From a bacterium (GTDB lineage: Bacteria; Vulcanimicrobiota; Vulcanimicrobiia; Vulcanimicrobiales; SCRA01): a stretch of 11,357 nt of DNA. The notes below the pieces were generated by a model. That model saw only the letters and a program-made list of their open reading frames with translations. It was not told the origin of the DNA and ran no database searches. The number at the start of each line of letters is the position of its first letter. The stretch's first letter is position 1. The translations under genes and the position numbers were made by a program. Location: assembly GCA_004298675.1 (NCBI GenBank), contig SCRI01000071.1, forward strand, positions 1-11,357. The letters run 5' to 3'. Of this stretch, positions 2,142-11,357 are shown piece by piece.

Positions 2142-2203
2142 CTCAAAATGGCGTGAATTCGGCCTTGTTGTCAATATACGCGTGCTTCGCACATATTCAA
2201 CAG

Positions 2204-2233
2204 TTGACTTTCCTCTATCCTCAATGCTATGCT
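2204..2233 (+). promoter_or_regulatory. Sigma-70-like promoter of the cas operon
   Basis: TTGACT (2204-2209) and TATGCT (2228-2233) are separated by 18 bases, each close to consensus for -35 and -10. Transcription would start near 2240, leaving a leader of about 137 bases before the cas3 ATG. It lies in the only sizeable gap upstream of the cas genes and diverges from the antitoxin promoter. Predicted by eye only. Confidence 0.4.
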
Positions 2234-2271
2234 CGCCGGAGGCTCGGCTCCCTTGAAGCAATATATGCGCC

Positions 2272-2299
2272 GCTCGCTTCGTATGCGAAGCAACCGAGC
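2272..2299 (+). other. Hairpin in the cas3 leader
   Basis: GCTTCG (2276-2281) and CGAAGC (2286-2291) form a perfect 6-bp stem with a TATG loop. An outer GCTC/GAGC pair (2272-2275, 2296-2299) extends it across a one-sided AACC bulge. It would sit in the 5' untranslated RNA of the cas operon. A role in regulation or RNA stability is possible, but the structure is short and could be chance. Confidence 0.3.
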
Positions 2300-2377
2300 A
2301 TCTCCGCGGCGGCAACGTCGCGGCCCCAATATCTATCCCAGATACTCCGCAACCCGCAAGGAGGCGGAACTCAAGAA

Positions 2378-4753
2378 ATGAGCGCTCTCGACAACTATAA
2401 CGAATTCTTCCGTATCGCGACGGGCGGAGCCGAGCCGTACCCGTACCAACGGCGCCTCGCAGAGCAGCACGTGGACTTCGTCCGCGTGCAGACCGGACTC
2501 GGGAAGACCGAGGCGCTTGTTCTTGGTTGGCTCTGGCGCCGGCTCCGCGGCGAGGCCGCGCCGCGAAAGCTCGTGTATGTCCTGCCCATGCGCTCGCTAG
2601 TCGAGCAGACTCGCAGCCGAGTTCAGGATTGCATCGGCCGCCTCGCCGCCGCGGGCATCGACGATCTCCCTAAGGTCGAAATCGTCATGGGCGGCGACAT
2701 TGGTGAAGAGTGGTACGAGAACCCCGAAGGAATGTGGGTCGTCATCGGCACTCAAGACGCGCTGCTGTCACGTGCTCTCAACCGCGGATACGCCATGTCG
2801 CGCTTCCAATGGCCGATGACCTTCGGCGCGATCAACAACGACGCACAGTGGGTCATCGATGAGGTCCAGCTTCAGGGCATTGGCGCTGTCACCGCGACGC
2901 AGCTCCAGAGCTTCCGCGAGCGCTTCGGAACGTATGGCGAAACGCGGACGACGCTTGCCTCCGCAACCCTCGATACGTCGTGGTTCGAGAGCGCGGACTA
3001 CTCCCTTGACGGGCGCATCACCGTCTGCCTGAGCGAAGACGATCTTGCAAACGCCAACGTGCAACGCATCACCAATGCGCCGAAGACCCTTGAGCGGCTC
3101 GAAACCTCCTCGGAATCCGATATCGCTAGCGCCGTGCTCGAGAAGCATCGCCCCGGAACCCAGACGCTCGTCGTCGTCAACACGGTAACGCGCGCGAAGG
3201 AGATCTGTCGCCGCCTACAGCGAGCAGCGCCACGTGCAGATGTCATGCTGCTCCATTCGCGGTTTAGGCCAGAAGATCGGATCACGCACGCCAATAAACT
3301 GAGCCAGCCGATCGACCAGAGCGGGCCTGGCCGCATCGTCGTCGCAACGCAAGTCATCGAGGCCGGTATCGATATCACCTCAGCAATACTGTTTACCGAA
3401 GCAGCGCCGTGGTCGTCCGTGGTGCAGCGGCTTGGCCGCTGCAATCGCCGCGGTGTGGACCACGACGCGCGCGTTATCTGGATCGACACCGGTGCACCGA
3501 CGGCGAAGAGTAGCCAGCCGTACGCATTGGAGGAGATCCAACAAGCGCGAACGATGCTGGAGACACTGGTCGGCCAGGACCTCGCACCGGCAAAGCTCCC
3601 TGCTTTGTCTATCGATCGCGGCCGCGGCCTCGTGTTGCGTCCACCCGACCTCCTCGACCTCTTCGATACCTCTCCCGATCTCGCTGGTCACGATATTGAC
3701 GTCTCGCCTTACATACGGGATGCCGATGATTTCACCGTCTCTATATTTTGGCGCGACCAGCCACCCACCAGTGATGCGCCTCCGCGGCGAGAGGAGCTCT
3801 GCCCAGCCACTGTTGGTGACTTGAAGAAGGTACTGGACGAGCTGCGAGCCGCAGGCCACAACGACGGTATTCGCATTGCAGACCAGTTCGCGCGTGCCCA
3901 TGCCGAGTGGGTACCGTTGACGCCCGAAGCGGTGCGGCCAGGGCTCCTAGTCTGGCTTCACGTTAGCGTTGGCCGATATGATAGCGAACTCGGCTTCGAT
4001 CTCGTGACCAAGGCGCGCGTGAATCCGATTGAGCCCAAAGAAGCTGCTCCGGCGTTCCACCAAACATGTGACTCGATCGATGGCGATCAGGAAAGCGAGA
4101 TCGGCGTCGCCCAGACGATCACCGAGCACGGGCAGTGGACGCGAGAAGAAGCGGCCGCCATCGTCGAACAGCTTTCATTGAGCGAGCATGACACGGAAGC
4201 CGTCGCGCGCGCGGCGCTGTGGCACGACGTGGGAAAAGCTCACCCGGTCTTCCAGCGCACGATGCGTGCCAGCATGCCGGATGCGGACCAGGACAAGCTA
4301 TGGGCGAAATCGGTTGCGCGCGGTGCTCGTCACGAGCGCAAGGGCTTCCGGCACGAGCTACCAGGCGCACTAGCCTACCTCGCTGCCTACGGGAGCGCGA
4401 ACGGCTCGAGTCTCATTGCGTACCTCATCGCATCGCACCACGGCAAGCTTCGCGTTGCGCCGACGCCGCTCCCGTACGAGCGGCAAGGTCATACGCAATA
4501 TCTTCTCGGCAATCGCGACGGGGACCGCGTGCCTGCCGTCTCGTTGTCCAACGGTGAGTCATCACCGGAGATCGACGTTTCTCTCGCAGCGTTTCGGGTC
4601 GGTACCGAAGATGGATCCTCGACGTGGGTCGACCGTGTTATGGGTTTGCGAGACGACGTTGCGTACGGACCATTCAAACTCGCTTATCTGGAATTACTCG
4701 TGCGAGTAGCCGACTGGCGTGCGAGCCGCAGAGCGGCAAAGGTTCGCCCATGA
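2378..4753 (+). CDS. cas3: Cas3 helicase-nuclease, type I-G, C-terminal HD domain
   Basis: A 791-residue Cas3, which unwinds and degrades DNA recognised by the surveillance complex. The helicase comes first: a Q-like YPYQRRLA (21-28), Walker A QTGLGKTE (38-45), motif II DEVQ (161-164; DExQ rather than the commoner DExH), SAT (195-197), VVATQVIEAGIDI (321-333) and QRLGRCNRRG (350-359). The HD nuclease is at the C-terminus: H584, WHDVGK with H616-D617, H659, HH 687-688, and a late Asp in RVADW (D779). This helicase-then-HD order is typical of I-G Cas3 and opposite to most type I systems. The start at 2378 puts YPYQ and Walker A at the usual distance from the N-terminus. The frame is open to 2123, but those residues look non-coding. 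An AAGGAGG at 2358-2364 is 13 bases away, longer than ideal. Its stop overlaps the next gene (ATGA). All catalytic motifs look intact. Confidence 0.95.
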   Translation: MSALDNYNEFFRIATGGAEPYPYQRRLAEQHVDFVRVQTGLGKTEALVLGWLWRRLRGEAAPRKLVYVLPMRSLVEQTRSRVQDCIGRLAAAGIDDLPKVEIVMGGDIGEEWYENPEGMWVVIGTQDALLSRALNRGYAMSRFQWPMTFGAINNDAQWVIDEVQLQGIGAVTATQLQSFRERFGTYGETRTTLASATLDTSWFESADYSLDGRITVCLSEDDLANANVQRITNAPKTLERLETSSESDIASAVLEKHRPGTQTLVVVNTVTRAKEICRRLQRAAPRADVMLLHSRFRPEDRITHANKLSQPIDQSGPGRIVVATQVIEAGIDITSAILFTEAAPWSSVVQRLGRCNRRGVDHDARVIWIDTGAPTAKSSQPYALEEIQQARTMLETLVGQDLAPAKLPALSIDRGRGLVLRPPDLLDLFDTSPDLAGHDIDVSPYIRDADDFTVSIFWRDQPPTSDAPPRREELCPATVGDLKKVLDELRAAGHNDGIRIADQFARAHAEWVPLTPEAVRPGLLVWLHVSVGRYDSELGFDLVTKARVNPIEPKEAAPAFHQTCDSIDGDQESEIGVAQTITEHGQWTREEAAAIVEQLSLSEHDTEAVARAALWHDVGKAHPVFQRTMRASMPDADQDKLWAKSVARGARHERKGFRHELPGALAYLAAYGSANGSSLIAYLIASHHGKLRVAPTPLPYERQGHTQYLLGNRDGDRVPAVSLSNGESSPEIDVSLAAFRVGTEDGSSTWVDRVMGLRDDVAYGPFKLAYLELLVRVADWRASRRAAKVRP

Positions 4754-6954
4754 ATGAGATGGTTTTGCCGGGCTGTCGGAATGATAGCCTTCTGGGTTAC
4801 CTCAAAGCACTTGGCCTCCTTCGCGTCTTTAGCACGCAGGCGGACCAGGCTGTACGAGCATCATGGCGGGATGCCACGTTGGTACTGCACACCGCGCAGA
4901 GCAACAGTGACGTAGCAACGTTCTTGCTTGAAGCCTATGCTCCGACGCCGGTGGTAAACCCATGGAATAACGGAGCCGGCTTCGATGGCAAGGCAGATGC
5001 GGCAACGCAGATCATCGATACGATACGGAAGACGAAGTCGCCACGTTGGGCCGCCTACCGGAGTATTGTGGAGCTCATTACGGAGCGCTACGTCAAGACC
5101 GGGCGGCGTCAGGCATTCATAGCCGAAAAGAAGAAGGAAGAGTTTCTACGCGATTTACGGCAGCACTATCCCGAAGAAGGCCTTGCGTGGCTGGACGTAG
5201 CCGTCGTCATCGCTGCCGATCGAGTCGTGTATCCGTACCTGCTCGGCAGCGGCGGAAACGACGGCCGGCTAGACTTTGCGGTAAACTTCGCGGCGCGCGC
5301 CCTTGAGGTTATCGGTGATGAGCCACTCAAGGAGTCTTCGAGTCTCCTAGCCGACGCACTTTACGAAACGTCGACGGCGCAGCTGAAGCAGAGCGCGATC
5401 GGCCAGTTTAGCCCGCGCTACGCAAGCGGACCAAATGCAACCAGCGGCTTTGACGCCGAATCCCTGGTAAACCCGTGGGACTTCGTGTTGATGATCGAGG
5501 GCGCGATGATGTTCTCCGGCGCGTTGGTAAAGCGCATCGAAAGCGACGGAAATTCTTCGGACGGGCGCAGCCGGTCCACTCAGTTCGCATTTCCCTTCGC
5601 CTTCCGGTCAGCAGGCGGATATGGCGCTTCCAGTACCGAGGAGGGCACGCGCGGCGAGGTGTGGTTGCCAATCTGGAATGGCCGTGCCAGCCTGCAGGCG
5701 CTGCGAGATCTCTTCCGCAAAGCGCGGGCGGATATCGTGCCAGGGAACGGCTCGCAGGTACGAGCCGCGGCGTCGGCCTCCGAAGCGGCAGTAGCGGCAC
5801 TGACCGCTGGAATCAGTACTGGGGTTGGAAGGCTGCAACGGGTCGCGTTCGTCCAGCGTAACGGTCTGGCGTATGCCGCAACGGTGGCGGGCACGGTGTC
5901 TGCACCAGAGCACGGAGATGAGCTTACGGCGCTGATTACGGGATCGATCGCGCATTGGGTTGAAGGGATGCGCAAAGGCGATGCTGCAAAGGGCGGTGCG
6001 GTTGCAGAGGCCTTGAGGCAGTTCGATACGCTTCTCTTTGAATATGCCGCGGCCCCCGAAGAGCGGAATAAGCACGCAGGGCAAGAGCTCCTAGCCGGCC
6101 TCGCAGCGCTCGATGTTGCGCTCTCGCGCAAACAGCCGGGGTGGCCGCCTCCACTACGGTACCTCAACGCCGCAGCTATCAATACCCTTGATGACGGATC
6201 GTGGGAGCACAACGTTGCCGCTGCCCTGGCTTCCCTGGGTGGTAGTGACCGGGCCAAGCGCCTTCGCCTACAGCTCGAGCACGTGAAGGCGGATGAGTCG
6301 GGTTTACGGCTGGTCTACGACCGGACTATCCAGCCCGCCACGCTCTCTGCTCCAACTCTCGCAAAGTCACTCGCGCAGATCGCGGCGGTTCGCGCCAGGC
6401 GTGCAGCGGAGCCGAAGGGCAGGGTCTGGTGGACTGCGGCGCGCGGGGCTGCAGTCAAAGACGTCGCGGCCATGCTGCAATTCGATCGCGATAATAAGAG
6501 ACATCAGCGTTGTTGGGATCGGCTCGCAAACCTGATTCTCGCTTACGCCATTGTTGAACCGTCGGCGCGCTTTGCCGGCACAGACGGCGACGACGATGAG
6601 CCGGCGCAGCCGGCGATCCCGGGCCCCTATGCAGTGATGAAGCTGATCCTCGATCATCCGCGAGCCCGTGACGAGAGAATTCTCGCCCTGCTCGCGGCCG
6701 GCCATCCAGAACGAGCATTGGATCTGGCCGCCCGCCGCGCTCGTACAATCGGCGGCCTACGTGGACGGTGGCGCGACGTTGATGGTGCGATCATTAGTGA
6801 CCCGCAGTGGTATGCGGCGGCGCTTTTGGTGCCGATTGCGCGGGGATGGAAGGAGTATCGCCGGCTATTGTGCGCAGCCATGACTCACAAGGGTGAAGAA
6901 CATGTGTATGAGGATTATAAACAACTCGTAAATTCCGGGGACGCAAAGGAGTAA
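4750..6954 (+). CDS. csx17: Cas8u2 (Csx17) large subunit, type I-G
   Basis: A 734-residue protein of the Csx17 family, the signature large subunit of type I-G, thought to act in target or PAM recognition within the surveillance complex. Recognisable motifs: LPGCRNDSLLGYLKALGLLRV (6-26), NPWNNGAGFDGK (70-81), LLGSGGNDGRLDFAVNF (164-180), NPWDFVLMIEGAMMFSGAL (241-259), and RLQRVAFVQRNGLAYAAT (361-378). These are the conserved blocks of the family, in order. The chosen ATG overlaps the cas3 stop (ATGA) and has AAAGG 7 bases upstream, so translation is probably coupled; the frame opens earlier, inside cas3, but that part duplicates cas3 codons. The second half is Ala/Arg/Leu-rich and helical, with an acidic loop TDGDDDEPAQP near residues 617-627. 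The end carries the ribosome binding site of cas7. Length and motifs suggest a working gene. Confidence 0.92.
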   Translation: MNEMVLPGCRNDSLLGYLKALGLLRVFSTQADQAVRASWRDATLVLHTAQSNSDVATFLLEAYAPTPVVNPWNNGAGFDGKADAATQIIDTIRKTKSPRWAAYRSIVELITERYVKTGRRQAFIAEKKKEEFLRDLRQHYPEEGLAWLDVAVVIAADRVVYPYLLGSGGNDGRLDFAVNFAARALEVIGDEPLKESSSLLADALYETSTAQLKQSAIGQFSPRYASGPNATSGFDAESLVNPWDFVLMIEGAMMFSGALVKRIESDGNSSDGRSRSTQFAFPFAFRSAGGYGASSTEEGTRGEVWLPIWNGRASLQALRDLFRKARADIVPGNGSQVRAAASASEAAVAALTAGISTGVGRLQRVAFVQRNGLAYAATVAGTVSAPEHGDELTALITGSIAHWVEGMRKGDAAKGGAVAEALRQFDTLLFEYAAAPEERNKHAGQELLAGLAALDVALSRKQPGWPPPLRYLNAAAINTLDDGSWEHNVAAALASLGGSDRAKRLRLQLEHVKADESGLRLVYDRTIQPATLSAPTLAKSLAQIAAVRARRAAEPKGRVWWTAARGAAVKDVAAMLQFDRDNKRHQRCWDRLANLILAYAIVEPSARFAGTDGDDDEPAQPAIPGPYAVMKLILDHPRARDERILALLAAGHPERALDLAARRARTIGGLRGRWRDVDGAIISDPQWYAAALLVPIARGWKEYRRLLCAAMTHKGEEHVYEDYKQLVNSGDAKE

Positions 6955-6960
6955 AAGATT

Positions 6961-7959
6961 ATGTCTGAAATGCTCGCGGGAGCTCGGGACGCCAAGCGGC
7001 TGCTGATCGAAGCTGATCTCAAGCCGGCACAGGGCATGCGCTTCCAGCCGACCGGCTTCCCAAGCCTTGGAGCCGCGGAGTTTCGTGGCCCCAATGGTAT
7101 TGACGTTCTGCTGGTAGAGTCGGCGCAGTCTATGGCCAACCGGCTTGAATCCACGGCATGGGACGATCCCAAGGAGGATTTGGTTGAAGTCTTCTCAGGG
7201 CTGCCGTACGTATTGACGACCGTTGACGGTCGGCAGACCGATTCGATCAGAGAAGCACATCGCTTGAATTCGCCTTATTTGATTGGCGGCCTCAAAGATG
7301 AGTTATCGAAACTTGCTGGGGTCGCAGGCCGCAAGGCCAAGGGCAAAGCTTCCGCGGACGACGAGACCGCGGACGAGAGTTCTGGCGTGGACCTGCGGAA
7401 GCTAGCCCACGCTGTCTTCCACTTTGATCCGAATTCCGTGCTTCATGGCGTGTTCTTGGAGAAGATCGTTGGAACGGCGCGGCTGACCCGTGTGCTCTCC
7501 GCATTTATCGAGGCCACCGGCGTGCACGCCGCCGAAAGCGGTGGCGTGAAGAATGATCGGGTCGACCCCGTAGGCCGGGCAAAGGGTGGCGCCGACAAGG
7601 GCTTCGGAAACGTTCCCTATGCGCGGACTGAGTACACGGCGGAAAAGATCGTGGCGTATTTTTCCATCGATCTGGCACTCCTCCGGTCGTACGGGCTTGG
7701 AGAATCCGCGGAGAACCTTCTCACCGCAATGGCGCTCTGGAAGATCCAACAGTTCCTCGAGAGTGGCGGTCGCCTCCGTACGGCGTGCGATTTCGAGGTT
7801 GACGGACAACCACGCGTCACCCGCCCGAATGGCTTCACGCTGCCGTCGCTCCAGCAGCTCGAGGGCGTGATCGCGAGTGAGATCACCAACTGCCGCGAAG
7901 CTGGCCTTTTCGCACAGCCGGCTAAGACGGCCGTCACTTTCGACGTCAAAGCAAAATGA
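6961..7959 (+). CDS. csb1: Cas7 backbone subunit, Csb1/GSU0053 family
   Basis: A 332-residue Cas7 of the Csb1 (GSU0053) family, which polymerises along the crRNA spacer to form the backbone of the type I-G complex. Conserved blocks: LIEADLKPAQGMRFQPTGFP (15-34), VLLVESAQSMANRLE (49-63), LNSPYLIGG (102-110), HGVFLEKI (162-169), LSAFIEATG (179-187), GGVKNDRVDP (194-203), GNVPYARTEYTA (216-227), and ALWKIQQFL with RLRTACDFEV (258-280). A strong AAAGGAG (6945-6951) runs up to the csx17 stop and lies 9 bases before the ATG. This is consistent with the high expression needed for a multi-copy subunit. Residues about 122-143 are a low-complexity charged stretch (GRKAKGKASADDETADESS), probably an exposed loop. 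The stop overlaps the next start by ATGA. No defect seen. Confidence 0.95.
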   Translation: MSEMLAGARDAKRLLIEADLKPAQGMRFQPTGFPSLGAAEFRGPNGIDVLLVESAQSMANRLESTAWDDPKEDLVEVFSGLPYVLTTVDGRQTDSIREAHRLNSPYLIGGLKDELSKLAGVAGRKAKGKASADDETADESSGVDLRKLAHAVFHFDPNSVLHGVFLEKIVGTARLTRVLSAFIEATGVHAAESGGVKNDRVDPVGRAKGGADKGFGNVPYARTEYTAEKIVAYFSIDLALLRSYGLGESAENLLTAMALWKIQQFLESGGRLRTACDFEVDGQPRVTRPNGFTLPSLQQLEGVIASEITNCREAGLFAQPAKTAVTFDVKAK

Positions 7960-9422
7960 TTGCGCTACGCATCGAGTTCCTTGCTGGCCGTTTTCACGCT
8001 AACCCGTGGGACGCCGGAACCAACGAAGGGGAAGTGGAGTGGCCGCCGTCCCCGTGGCGCCTGCTCCGTGCGATCACCGCGGGGTGGTTTCGCGCGGGCG
8101 GTGAGCACCGCGACGTTTTCCTGCGCATGCTTGACGCGCTCTGCGAGGCGCCGCGCTTCCTTCTTCCAAGAGCAACGGCGGGCCATTCTCGTCATTACGT
8201 TCCGCTAGGCGGGTTCAAGAACGGCAAGCCCGAGAAGACGCAGATCCTGGATTCGTTCCTCGCGCTAGATCACGACAGCGAGCACCCGGCCGTGGCATAC
8301 GCCGTGTGGCCAGCGATCGATCTTCCCGAGGAAGTGCGGGCGCTGCTCGAGCGTGCGTGCAATCTCATCGGGTACCTTGGACGCGCTGAATCATGGTGCT
8401 CCGTCGAAGTCGTGGACTCCGCACCCCACGACGGAGAGTTGACGCTCGTCGATCTCGCGTCGCGGGAGGATGTGCCGTCCGCGGGGCCGCTGGTGCGACG
8501 CCTCGCTCCCAGCCTTTCGCTTCGCGGTGCAGGGCTACTACGCTCTCTTGTGCAGACGACGGCCGATATGCGCCGCTCCAAGCGGCTCATGCCTCCGGGC
8601 ACGGCATGGGTGGAGTACCGCCTGCCGCCCGGGTTTCTTCTCGTCCAAGAGCAGTACGAGGAGCAAGAACTACGTGGGTCGGTCTTTGATAAGATCGTCC
8701 TACGCTTCAGCGTTGAACGCCCGCGGCAGGGTGTGCTCCCGCCAGTCACGCGGGCCGTCGATGTCGCTGAGCTGATGCGCCGTTCCGCGTTATCCCGATA
8801 CAGCCGCCGCGACGGGCCAGCATCGACGCTCCTAGCAGGAAAGGCCGACGATGGCGATGGGAAGCGTCAGGGTCACGACCACCCGTACTACCTACCGTTC
8901 GATTCGCGTGGCGATGGGAAGATCGACCGCATCGATGTGTGGTTTCCAAAGGGATGTCGCCACCAAGAGTACCTCGCGGTCTCATCCGTCGATGCGCTGT
9001 GCGATTATCGCATTTTCGACGAAACGCTCCCGCTTACGTTTCTCGGAAGCGTCACACCCGATACGTCCTCGCTCGTGTGGGAGAGCATCACGCCCGTCGT
9101 TTTGGATCGTTTTCCCAAGCTTCGGGGTCAGGGCCACTCGCTGCTCCTGGATGGGCCGGAGGAGCAAATCGCCGCAATGCTAGGTCGTCGCTCGGACACT
9201 GTAGCCGAGGTCGAGGTATGGCCGGCCGGCGCGCATGTGCGTCGTCGCGGGGGCAGTGGGGCGCGCATTGACGCGTTCCGTGCGCGGCGTCGCGGAAAAC
9301 CTGAGCGCCTGCCGCCGCTCGTCGGAGCAACGCTCCGTTTCAGCGAACCCGTTTCCGGACCTATCGTTCTCGGCCGTCTCGCCCACTTCGGTCTTGGCCA
9401 ATTCGCACCGTGTGAGTTTTGA
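7956..9422 (+). CDS. csb2: Cas5-Cas6 fusion, Csb2/GSU0054 family
   Basis: A 488-residue Csb2 (GSU0054) protein, in which a Cas5-like part caps the crRNA 5' handle and a Cas6-like part cleaves pre-crRNA. The N-terminus has the family hallmark FLAGRFHANPWDAGTNEG then EVEWPPSPWRLLRAI (8-40), followed by SRHYVPLG (78-85). The middle has GHDHPYYLPFDSRGDGKIDR (306-325), another diagnostic block. The C-terminus ends with GPIVLGRLAHFGLGQFAP (468-485), the glycine-rich loop typical of Cas6 RAMP folds. H80, H307, H309 and H477 are conserved-looking histidines, but I cannot say which is catalytic. The start overlaps the cas7 stop (ATGA) and has no clear ribosome binding site of its own, implying translational coupling. 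It is the last gene of the tight interference cluster; the next cas gene follows after 81 bases. No terminator is seen after it. Confidence 0.93.
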   Translation: MIALRIEFLAGRFHANPWDAGTNEGEVEWPPSPWRLLRAITAGWFRAGGEHRDVFLRMLDALCEAPRFLLPRATAGHSRHYVPLGGFKNGKPEKTQILDSFLALDHDSEHPAVAYAVWPAIDLPEEVRALLERACNLIGYLGRAESWCSVEVVDSAPHDGELTLVDLASREDVPSAGPLVRRLAPSLSLRGAGLLRSLVQTTADMRRSKRLMPPGTAWVEYRLPPGFLLVQEQYEEQELRGSVFDKIVLRFSVERPRQGVLPPVTRAVDVAELMRRSALSRYSRRDGPASTLLAGKADDGDGKRQGHDHPYYLPFDSRGDGKIDRIDVWFPKGCRHQEYLAVSSVDALCDYRIFDETLPLTFLGSVTPDTSSLVWESITPVVLDRFPKLRGQGHSLLLDGPEEQIAAMLGRRSDTVAEVEVWPAGAHVRRRGGSGARIDAFRARRRGKPERLPPLVGATLRFSEPVSGPIVLGRLAHFGLGQFAPCEF

Positions 9423-9503: not shown

Positions 9504-11156
9504 ATGCTTACCTCTCTTGAGGCGCCCGATCCGTTACCGGCGCGGATGGTCAACGAATTCGTCTACTGCCCCAGACTCTTCTGGCTCGAGCACGTAGAGC
9601 GGGAGTTCGAAGAGTCGTACGATACGGTCGATGGCGAGCGAGTACATCGCCGCGTCGATCAACCCCGCGGAACGATCCCTGATGATATCGCCCAGATGCG
9701 GTCCGAAGCATCATCCGTCGAGCTTGCGTCGGAGCATCTGGGCGTGGTCGCGAAGATCGACCTGGTCCGCGCGGACGGTGGCCAGGCGGTCCCGATCGAC
9801 TTCAAGCGCGGACGAGCGCCGGCGATTCCCGGCGGCGCCTACGACCCCGAGCGCGTACAGGTCTGTATTCAAGCCCTGCTCCTGCGTGAGAACGGATATC
9901 GGTGCGATCTCGCGCGCATCTACTACGCGGCATCCAAAACGTACGTCGATATTCCTATCGATGAGGCCCTGGTCACTCAGACCCTTAACGCGATCTCCGG
10001 CGCCCGCGTCGCCGCTGTGGCCGGCACGCCACCAGCTCCGCTGATCGACAGCCCAAAATGCGCGCGCTGCTCATTGAACTCGATCTGCCTCCCGGATGAG
10101 ACGAATGCGCTACGGCGGCGGAATGGCGAGACGCGCGTTCGCGCTTTTGCCGCTCCCTCGGATGACCGGATCCCCATGTACGTGATGGAGCCCGGTGCCC
10201 GCGTTGGACTGTCGGGCGAGAGGCTGGAGGTACGAACCGACGCCGGAGTCCAAGCCGATGCGCGCTTGGACGATATCACGCATCTCTCACTCTTCGGCAA
10301 CGTACAGGTTTCATCGCAGGCGGCGCGCGCGCTACTTTCGCGTGACGAGCCGATCTTCTATCTCAGCTACGGGGGCTGGCTCAGCGGCTACGCGCGTTCA
10401 ATCAACGATCACAGCCTAGACCTTCGGGTTGAACAGCACCTGCTCGCCCGTGACAAGGAGCGCAGCTTAGCCATCGCGCGTGAGATCGTGTTCGGGAAGG
10501 TCAAGAATCAGCGCACGATGATGCGGCGTGCGTTGGGGGCGAAGGCGAAGCCGGCGCTGCGTGCGATGGCATTCTTAATGCATCGGGTTCAGCATGCCGT
10601 CAGCGCTGATGAGCTGCTCGGTTTCGAAGGTGCCGCCGCGCAGAGATATTTCGAGGCGTTCGGTGAGATGCTGAGCATTGGCACAGGCTTCGAGGTGACA
10701 GGACGTAATCGGCGGCCGCCAACGGATCCGGTCAATGCCATGCTCTCGTTCGGTTATTCGATGCTGGCAAAAGAGGCCGTTGCCGCCGCCCTGGCGGTTG
10801 GCTTTGAGCCCGGGCTGGGATTCTATCATCGCCCGCGCCCTGGGCGGCCATCACTTGCGCTCGATCTCATGGAAGAGTTCCGGCCGCTTGTTGTCGATTC
10901 GACGGTACTGACGCTGGTGAACTCGCGTGAGATTCGCCCCAATCACTTCGACCGGCGTGGGCGGGCTATCGTCTTGACGACCGACGGAAGACGGGCCTTC
11001 ATAGCAGCCTTGGAGCGGCGGTTACGAGCGAGCATTAGCCATCCGATTTTCGGCTATCAGGTGACATATCGTAGAGCGCTGCACGTTCAGGCGAGACTCT
11101 TGGCTAGGGCGATTCAGGGAGACCTGCCTCAGTATCCGCCCTTTACGACCAGATAG
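9504..11156 (+). CDS. cas4-cas1: Cas4-Cas1 fusion, spacer integrase with PAM-processing nuclease
   Basis: A 550-residue fusion common in type I-G loci. The Cas4 half (about 1-200) trims prespacers in a PAM-dependent way; the Cas1 half (about 220-550) inserts spacers together with Cas2. Cas4 features: VNEFVYCPRLFWLE with C22, KIDLV (D86), PIDFKRG (D99, K101), ERVQVCIQALLL (Q119, Q123), and CARCSLNSIC (C186, C189, C195). C22, C186, C189 and C195 match the four iron-sulfur cluster ligands. Cas1 features: LFGNVQVSSQA, LLGFEGAAAQRYFEAF (E375 metal ligand), RPPTDPVNAMLSFGYSML, and GFYHRPRPGRPSLALDLMEEFRP (H442, D454, E458), the metal site. Nothing is missing in either half. The ATG at 9504 precedes the conserved Cas4 N-terminus by about 14 residues. 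The gene ends 3 bases before cas2. Its normal partner, Cas2, is disrupted here, so spacer acquisition is probably impaired even though this protein looks sound. Confidence 0.95.
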   Translation: MLTSLEAPDPLPARMVNEFVYCPRLFWLEHVEREFEESYDTVDGERVHRRVDQPRGTIPDDIAQMRSEASSVELASEHLGVVAKIDLVRADGGQAVPIDFKRGRAPAIPGGAYDPERVQVCIQALLLRENGYRCDLARIYYAASKTYVDIPIDEALVTQTLNAISGARVAAVAGTPPAPLIDSPKCARCSLNSICLPDETNALRRRNGETRVRAFAAPSDDRIPMYVMEPGARVGLSGERLEVRTDAGVQADARLDDITHLSLFGNVQVSSQAARALLSRDEPIFYLSYGGWLSGYARSINDHSLDLRVEQHLLARDKERSLAIAREIVFGKVKNQRTMMRRALGAKAKPALRAMAFLMHRVQHAVSADELLGFEGAAAQRYFEAFGEMLSIGTGFEVTGRNRRPPTDPVNAMLSFGYSMLAKEAVAAALAVGFEPGLGFYHRPRPGRPSLALDLMEEFRPLVVDSTVLTLVNSREIRPNHFDRRGRAIVLTTDGRRAFIAALERRLRASISHPIFGYQVTYRRALHVQARLLARAIQGDLPQYPPFTTR

Positions 11157-11159
11157 CCA

Positions 11160-11239
11160 ATGCTGCGCGCGTACATTCTCTCGTACGACATCTCGTCTCC
11201 CAAGCGTCTTAGAGCGATGTATAAGATTGCGAAGGCCTA
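11160..11239 (+). pseudogene. cas2: cas2, truncated by IS3-family insertion
   Basis: ATG at 11160, 3 bases after the cas4-cas1 stop, opens a frame reading MLRAYILSYDISSPKRLRAM then YKIAKAY. This is the Cas2 N-terminus: a first beta strand ending in SYD (metal-site D10), then 'sp.RLr..yKi.k.y'. Cas2 proteins are usually about 90-100 residues, and the next segment should be 'G...Q.SVF.c'. Instead, from codon 27 the sequence is the terminal repeat of an IS3-family element. The frame continues into the IS and stops at TGA 11319-11321, giving at most a 53-residue chimera lacking most of the Cas2 fold. The remainder of cas2 should lie beyond the IS, outside the window. Without a second Cas2 the Cas1-Cas2 integrase could not assemble. 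Confidence 0.85.
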
Positions 11240-11265
11240 TGAAGCTGGTCCGGTTTCGTGGAGAG
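11240..11265. repeat. Terminal inverted repeat (IRR) of the IS3-family element
   Basis: The 26 bases following the cas2 break begin TGAAGCTGGTCC and end GGAGAG. The partner repeat would be at the other end of the IS, outside the window. The exact border could be off by one or two bases because it cannot be compared with an empty site. Confidence 0.55.
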
Positions 11266-11279
11266 TTTGTGATTGGACA

Positions 11280-11357
11280 TCAGGCGGGCTGACTCATGCG
11301 GCGCTCGAAGTCCATGGGTGAGAGGAAGCCGATTGACGTGTGTCGGCGGTGTGGGTT
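11280..11357 (-). CDS. IS3-family transposase, C-terminal 25 codons
   Basis: On the minus strand the frame runs from the window edge to TGA (plus-strand TCA at 11280-11282). It reads NPHRRHTSIGFLSPMDFERR then MSQPA. IS3-family OrfB transposases (DDE integrase core) end with the well-known 'YN..RrHssLGylSP.efE' block, which matches closely. The last catalytic residue (Glu of DDE) would be upstream, outside the window, so activity cannot be judged. The gene is read towards cas4-cas1. Confidence 0.85.
   Translation of the reverse strand, partial: NPHRRHTSIGFLSPMDFERRMSQPA

Follow-up and report, generated by a model that had tools for sequence, protein, structure and literature searches.

Locus organization

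The window, a stretch of 11,357 nucleotides, is the whole of contig C58 in a draft genome of 3,027,335 bases (3.03 Mb), which comprises 87 contigs and has an estimated completeness of 98.5%. It contains a type I-G operon in the order cas3g-csx17-csb1-csb2-cas4/1-cas2, in which cas2 is the last gene:

2378–4753, plus strand: cas3g, intact, with helicase and HD motifs (TIGR02621, alignment)
4744–6954, plus strand: csx17 (cas8g), intact (TIGR04113)
6961–7959, plus strand: csb1 (cas7g), intact (TIGR02570)
7956–9422, plus strand: csb2 (cas5-cas6), intact (TIGR02165)
9504–11156, plus strand: cas4g/cas1g fusion, intact (NCBIfam NF049935, 711 bits against a cut-off of 560; alignment)
11160–11239, plus strand: 5′ part of cas2, 26 codons and 2 bases (homology to the 98-aa Cas2 of loci L014, L144, L145 and L146)
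11240–11357, minus strand: right end of a multi-copy IS3-family element with a transposase C-terminus, running off the contig (five other contig ends, OrfB match)

With the exception of cas2, all of these cas genes (cas3g, csx17, csb1, csb2 and cas4g/cas1g) score above their NCBIfam cut-offs. The frames of Cas3, Csx17, Csb2 and Cas4–Cas1 are full length, as in the orthologues of L144–L146, and that of Csb1 is as in L144 and L146. The Cas3 alignment retains TGLGKTEA, IDEVQ and LWHDVGKAH, and that of Cas4–Cas1 retains the cysteine cluster and the IDFKRG, GFEG, GFYH and LALDLMEEF blocks. Scores and motif alignments thus agree with a sequence-only reading of the window, which had described the interference genes as intact. 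That reading had also credited both halves of Cas4–Cas1 with their motifs; the intactness holds, but the two halves are one intact 550-aa fusion gene. A search for a second cas1 showed this one to be single in the genome bin. The type I-G effector set (cas3g, csx17, csb1 and csb2) is present, and the adaptation set is incomplete, with an intact cas4g/cas1g fusion and a cas2 interrupted after 26 codons. Judged by its gene content, the locus is a derived type I-G system whose adaptation module is broken.

Divergent to cas3, on the minus strand at 1277–2129, lies a gene pair in which a 165-aa gene without a Pfam match is upstream of a gene for a DUF5615, PIN-like protein. Both L144 and L145 carry homologues of these genes at the corresponding position, and the pair is possibly a toxin–antitoxin pair linked to the CRISPR locus.

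An IS3-family element in cas2

The cas2 gene starts at ATG 11160, and its homology to the four intact 98-aa orthologues ends at 11239/11240, after 26 codons and 2 bases of codon 27. In the homologous part the window reads GCGAAGGCCTA, against GCGAAGGCCTT in L146. The frame that is left codes for a product of 53 aa, and Cas2 accounts for just 26 of them. From 11240 onwards the window reads TGAAGCTGGTCCGG..., and this 118-bp end recurs with 99–100% identity at the ends of contigs C78, C26, C17, C51 and C33 (over 76 bp in C33). The flanking DNA differs at each of these five right ends, and identity starts at the same TG. The alignment to orthologues and the shared IS end confirm the earlier description of a cas2 that reads normally for about 26 codons and then passes into an IS3 terminal repeat with a transposase C-terminus behind it.

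Contigs C28 and C74 terminate in the matching left end (TGAAGCTGGCCCGGTTCC...), with the start of OrfA, MARKHPRSYPPEFRHNVVELA, after it. The right (TGAAGCTGGTCCGGTTTCGTGGA) and left (TGAAGCTGGCCCGGTTCCGTGGA) terminal repeats are alike at 21 of 23 positions and begin with TG, as in the IS3 family. On the minus strand of the window, the transposase C-terminus NPHRRHTSIGFLSPMDFERRMSQPA aligns at 15 of 25 residues with the last part of a complete IS3-type OrfB. In the phylum, related elements code for an OrfA with HTH_Tnp_1 and an OrfB with HTH_21 and rve; these domains were tested on a complete relative, L156, whose OrfB end the window fragment matches. The two genes that characterize the IS3 family, OrfA and an OrfB with a DDE integrase core, are thus represented by the OrfA start at the left ends and by the domains in L156. 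The element shares with the family its TG...CA termini with inverted repeats, the OrfA HTH, the OrfB HTH_21 and rve domains and its many copies; we saw no difference from the family, although its full length is not assembled in the genome. It is a real multi-copy IS of the IS3 family. Relatives of the element are scattered across the phylum (23 of 149 genomes).

Contigs at the IS ends stop 117–120 bp into the element, the sole exception being C33, which stops after 76 bp. Contigs halting inside an IS are the usual sign of an assembler stopped by a repeat, and C58 stops at 11357 because the IS is such a repeat. The bin holds at least six right ends and two left ends (C28 and C74); in all, the element interrupts the assembly at no fewer than eight contig ends. 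As to target duplications, the flanks of C26 and C74 both read CTT, perhaps by chance between unrelated ends, and those of L156 (GTC and CAT) do not match.

The proximity of the junction to the contig end, beside a repeat, could point to a chimeric assembly in which cas2 is in fact intact. We consider this highly improbable, as the join coincides precisely with the terminus that the IS shows at five further sites, and at the junction cas2 and the IS have no long word in common that might have misled the assembler. A chimeric join was rejected on the coincidence of the edge with the terminus common to six contigs.

The insertion had been proposed to be recent, from its sharp junction and the absence of decay in the cas genes. 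Recent activity of the IS is indicated by its ends, which are 99–100% identical. The intactness of the cas genes does not serve as dating evidence, because their orthologues are only about 47–70% identical.

Consequences for adaptation and interference

The IS3-family insertion in the proposed 'split' of cas2 is established. The split itself we infer, because the assembly does not reach the other side of the IS: the contig stops 118 bp into the element, and the second half of cas2 and a target duplication are unseen. The rest of cas2 was not found in the bin with a loose-threshold HMM, with the orthologue protein or next to the left ends of the IS, where the flanking DNA in C28 and C74 does not continue cas2. 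Searches at the loose HMM threshold and with the orthologue protein also uncovered no other cas2 in the genome. None of three congeners searched carries the locus, so that they offer no empty site for comparison.

A search of the bin for a type I-G array (ATTGAAGC-type) found none. The joint absence of this array and of the cas2 3′ half from a bin that is 98.5% complete could reflect an IS-linked deletion or rearrangement that also removed the CRISPR array along with the remainder of cas2, in which case interference would be lost too. However, the bin as a whole lacks most left junctions of the IS (at least four of six), which were either not assembled or not binned. Moreover, in L144–L146 the array starts about 175 bp past cas2, and the cas2 3′ half and the array would therefore share the missing contig, so that one assembly break would lose both. 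Their absence is thus no proof of deletion, which we regard as unlikely.

Alternatively, the insertion may be polymorphic, with the population mixing intact and interrupted cas2, the assembler having taken the interrupted path and the lineage keeping adaptation. The genome resembles a metagenome bin, the nearly identical IS ends speak for recent activity and the surrounding cas genes are without decay, all of which would fit such a mixture; the bin, however, holds on searching neither an intact cas2 nor a cas2 3′ half. We consider this possible but doubtful.

We put at about 0.78 the probability that an IS3-family insertion lies in codon 27 of cas2 in an otherwise intact type I-G operon, such that spacer acquisition should stop and interference could continue. 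Under this reading, a recently active, multi-copy element would have transposed into codon 27. Like other spacer-acquiring systems, type I-G relies on an integration complex formed by Cas1 and Cas2, its integrase being Cas4/1–Cas2 (PMC10274657). The 53-aa product, with its 26 Cas2 residues, misses most of the Cas2 fold; no Cas4/1–Cas2 integrase would then form, and acquisition would stop in cells with the insertion allele. Adaptation is therefore likely lost in the interrupted allele. The upstream cas genes precede the insertion and are untouched, so that interference could go on with existing spacers. Interference needs an array, and as the array is unseen, we infer its survival and continued interference. 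The picture of a system that 'can defend but not learn' is thus plausible, and half of it has been tested.

Insertions of this kind are well documented: a survey of natural IS insertions into cas genes lists 163 cases from 20 IS families and 57 genera (PMC10359306). The cas2 insertion is a new case and ordinary in kind, an IS having transposed into a cas gene and inactivated part of the system. In contrast to that survey, which stresses loss of whole immunity, the gene hit here is the adaptation gene cas2, in type I-G and in a little-studied phylum. The locus offers a natural CRISPR system that probably lost learning while its effector genes stay intact, and can help in asking whether CRISPR systems lose adaptation more easily than interference.

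A CRISPR-like mini-array in the operon leader

The operon leader (2229–2335), upstream of cas3 and its likely ATG at 2378, contains two degenerate CRISPR repeats flanking a 40-nt guide, and a candidate target lies nearby:

2158–2200, minus strand: protospacer-like target, read from 2197 downwards, with a TTG PAM at 2200–2198
2229–2259, plus strand: psiR1, a degenerate repeat that keeps the I-G repeat 5′ handle CCCTTGAAGC (12/14 match)
2260–2299, plus strand: spacer-like guide of 40 nt with seed AATATATGCG (matching the cas promoter at 9/10 positions, beside a TTG PAM)
2300–2335, plus strand: psiR2, a degenerate repeat with the stem-loop kept (26/36 matches with the L015 repeat; predicted to fold into an 8-bp stem)

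No other site in the window matches the handle as well as psiR1 does, the runner-up reaching 10/14. For psiR2, shuffled windows compared with the L015 repeat reach at most 22 matches, against the observed 26 of 36. The retained parts are those that a mature guide RNA needs: the first repeat supplies its 5′ handle and the second its hairpin.

The guide seed AATATATGCG pairs with the target AATATGTGCG, which lies on the minus strand from 2197 behind the PAM TTG, with a sole mismatch at position 6. This position is left unpaired by type I effectors. No other TTN-flanked match in the entire window is as good, and the target adjoins, at a distance of 3 bp, a −35-like TTGACT at 2204. The type I-G PAM is GAA, or TTC on the other strand (PMC10274657).

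Similar arrangements occur in other loci. In the order-mates G065 (L144) and G066 (L145), psiR1, guide and psiR2 are found in the same place. The seeds are ATTGCGTGCG in L144 and ATTGCATGCG in L145, and the respective targets are TTC followed by ATTGCATGCG and TTC followed by ATTGCTTGCG; both pairs are mismatched only at position 6 and lie beside TTGACT, as in the window. Between the window and L144/L145, guide and target covary at three seed positions, and swapping the guides between them yields 6/9 matches instead of 9/9. In an alphaproteobacterial type I-G locus from Reyranella (L087), the guide is reversed in orientation (ATGATTTGAA), with a target (TTC followed by ATGATGTGAA) near the cas3 promoter. 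With their targets, the mini-arrays lie at 2158–2335 in the window, at about 11086–11347 on the minus strand in L144, at 948–1209 in L145 and upstream of cas3 in L087.

Across 58 cas3 upstream regions, 4 of 27 handle-led candidates have a 9/9 target with the required TTN PAM (position 6 being left out of the count), against 9 of 10,110 control words; these are the four loci described. This corresponds to a binomial p of about 1e-8, a value that calls for caution given the relatedness of L144 and L145. A search of L015 and L146 revealed no leader mini-array, so that the feature is not universal in type I-G, and a search for further I-G loci among plasmids gave one remote hit. Upstream of cas3 in L150 and L151 are repeat-handle-like remnants (GGCCCAATTGAAGC and GGGCTCAGTTGAAG) without a recognised promoter target.

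A candidate autorepressor

The leader feature resembles the cas-regulating CreR RNAs (reviewed in PMC12737573) and the CreA antitoxin guides (PMC8501985, PMC9458426), with which it shares a single guide enclosed by a pair of degenerate repeats in the vicinity of cas genes and complementarity to a promoter at the level of the seed only. Unlike these, it belongs to type I-G, and in three loci the mini-array lies downstream of the targeted promoter, within the cas leader. CreR-type autorepression is the likely mechanism suggested by this arrangement. The cas transcript would begin with psiR1, guide and psiR2, which Csb2 would excise, and the effector loaded with the leader guide would bind beside the −35 box of its own promoter and repress the cas operon. 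That the transcript would carry the guide is suggested by the predicted promoter, a consensus match, which precedes the mini-array in the window as well as in L144 and L145.

The target also overlaps a promoter-like site on the minus strand, and the guide may instead repress the divergent gene pair at 1277–2129, in the manner of CreA in CreTA modules. Another possibility is that the target region is a protein operator, as it forms an imperfect palindrome, but this leaves the two flanking degenerate repeats unexplained. We lean towards a CreR-type autorepressor that carries its own guide within the leader it controls and that, together with the interrupted cas2, would make this a self-limiting, interference-only system. 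The literature searched offered no type I-G example of a CreR-type guide. The leader guide is more novel than the cas2 insertion. If this reading is true, type I-G would join the systems under crRNA-like autorepression, with a seed, PAM and target that are readable from sequence and directly testable.

Adaptation-module relatives

The closest Cas4–Cas1 records come from a bog Candidatus Eremiobacterota MAG (L014, 72%) and from MAG DX1.bin67 (L015, 70%). In L014, cas2 is intact, and the 8 kb upstream have no match to the type I-G effector genes of the window, which suggests that adaptation modules may have been exchanged between effector types.
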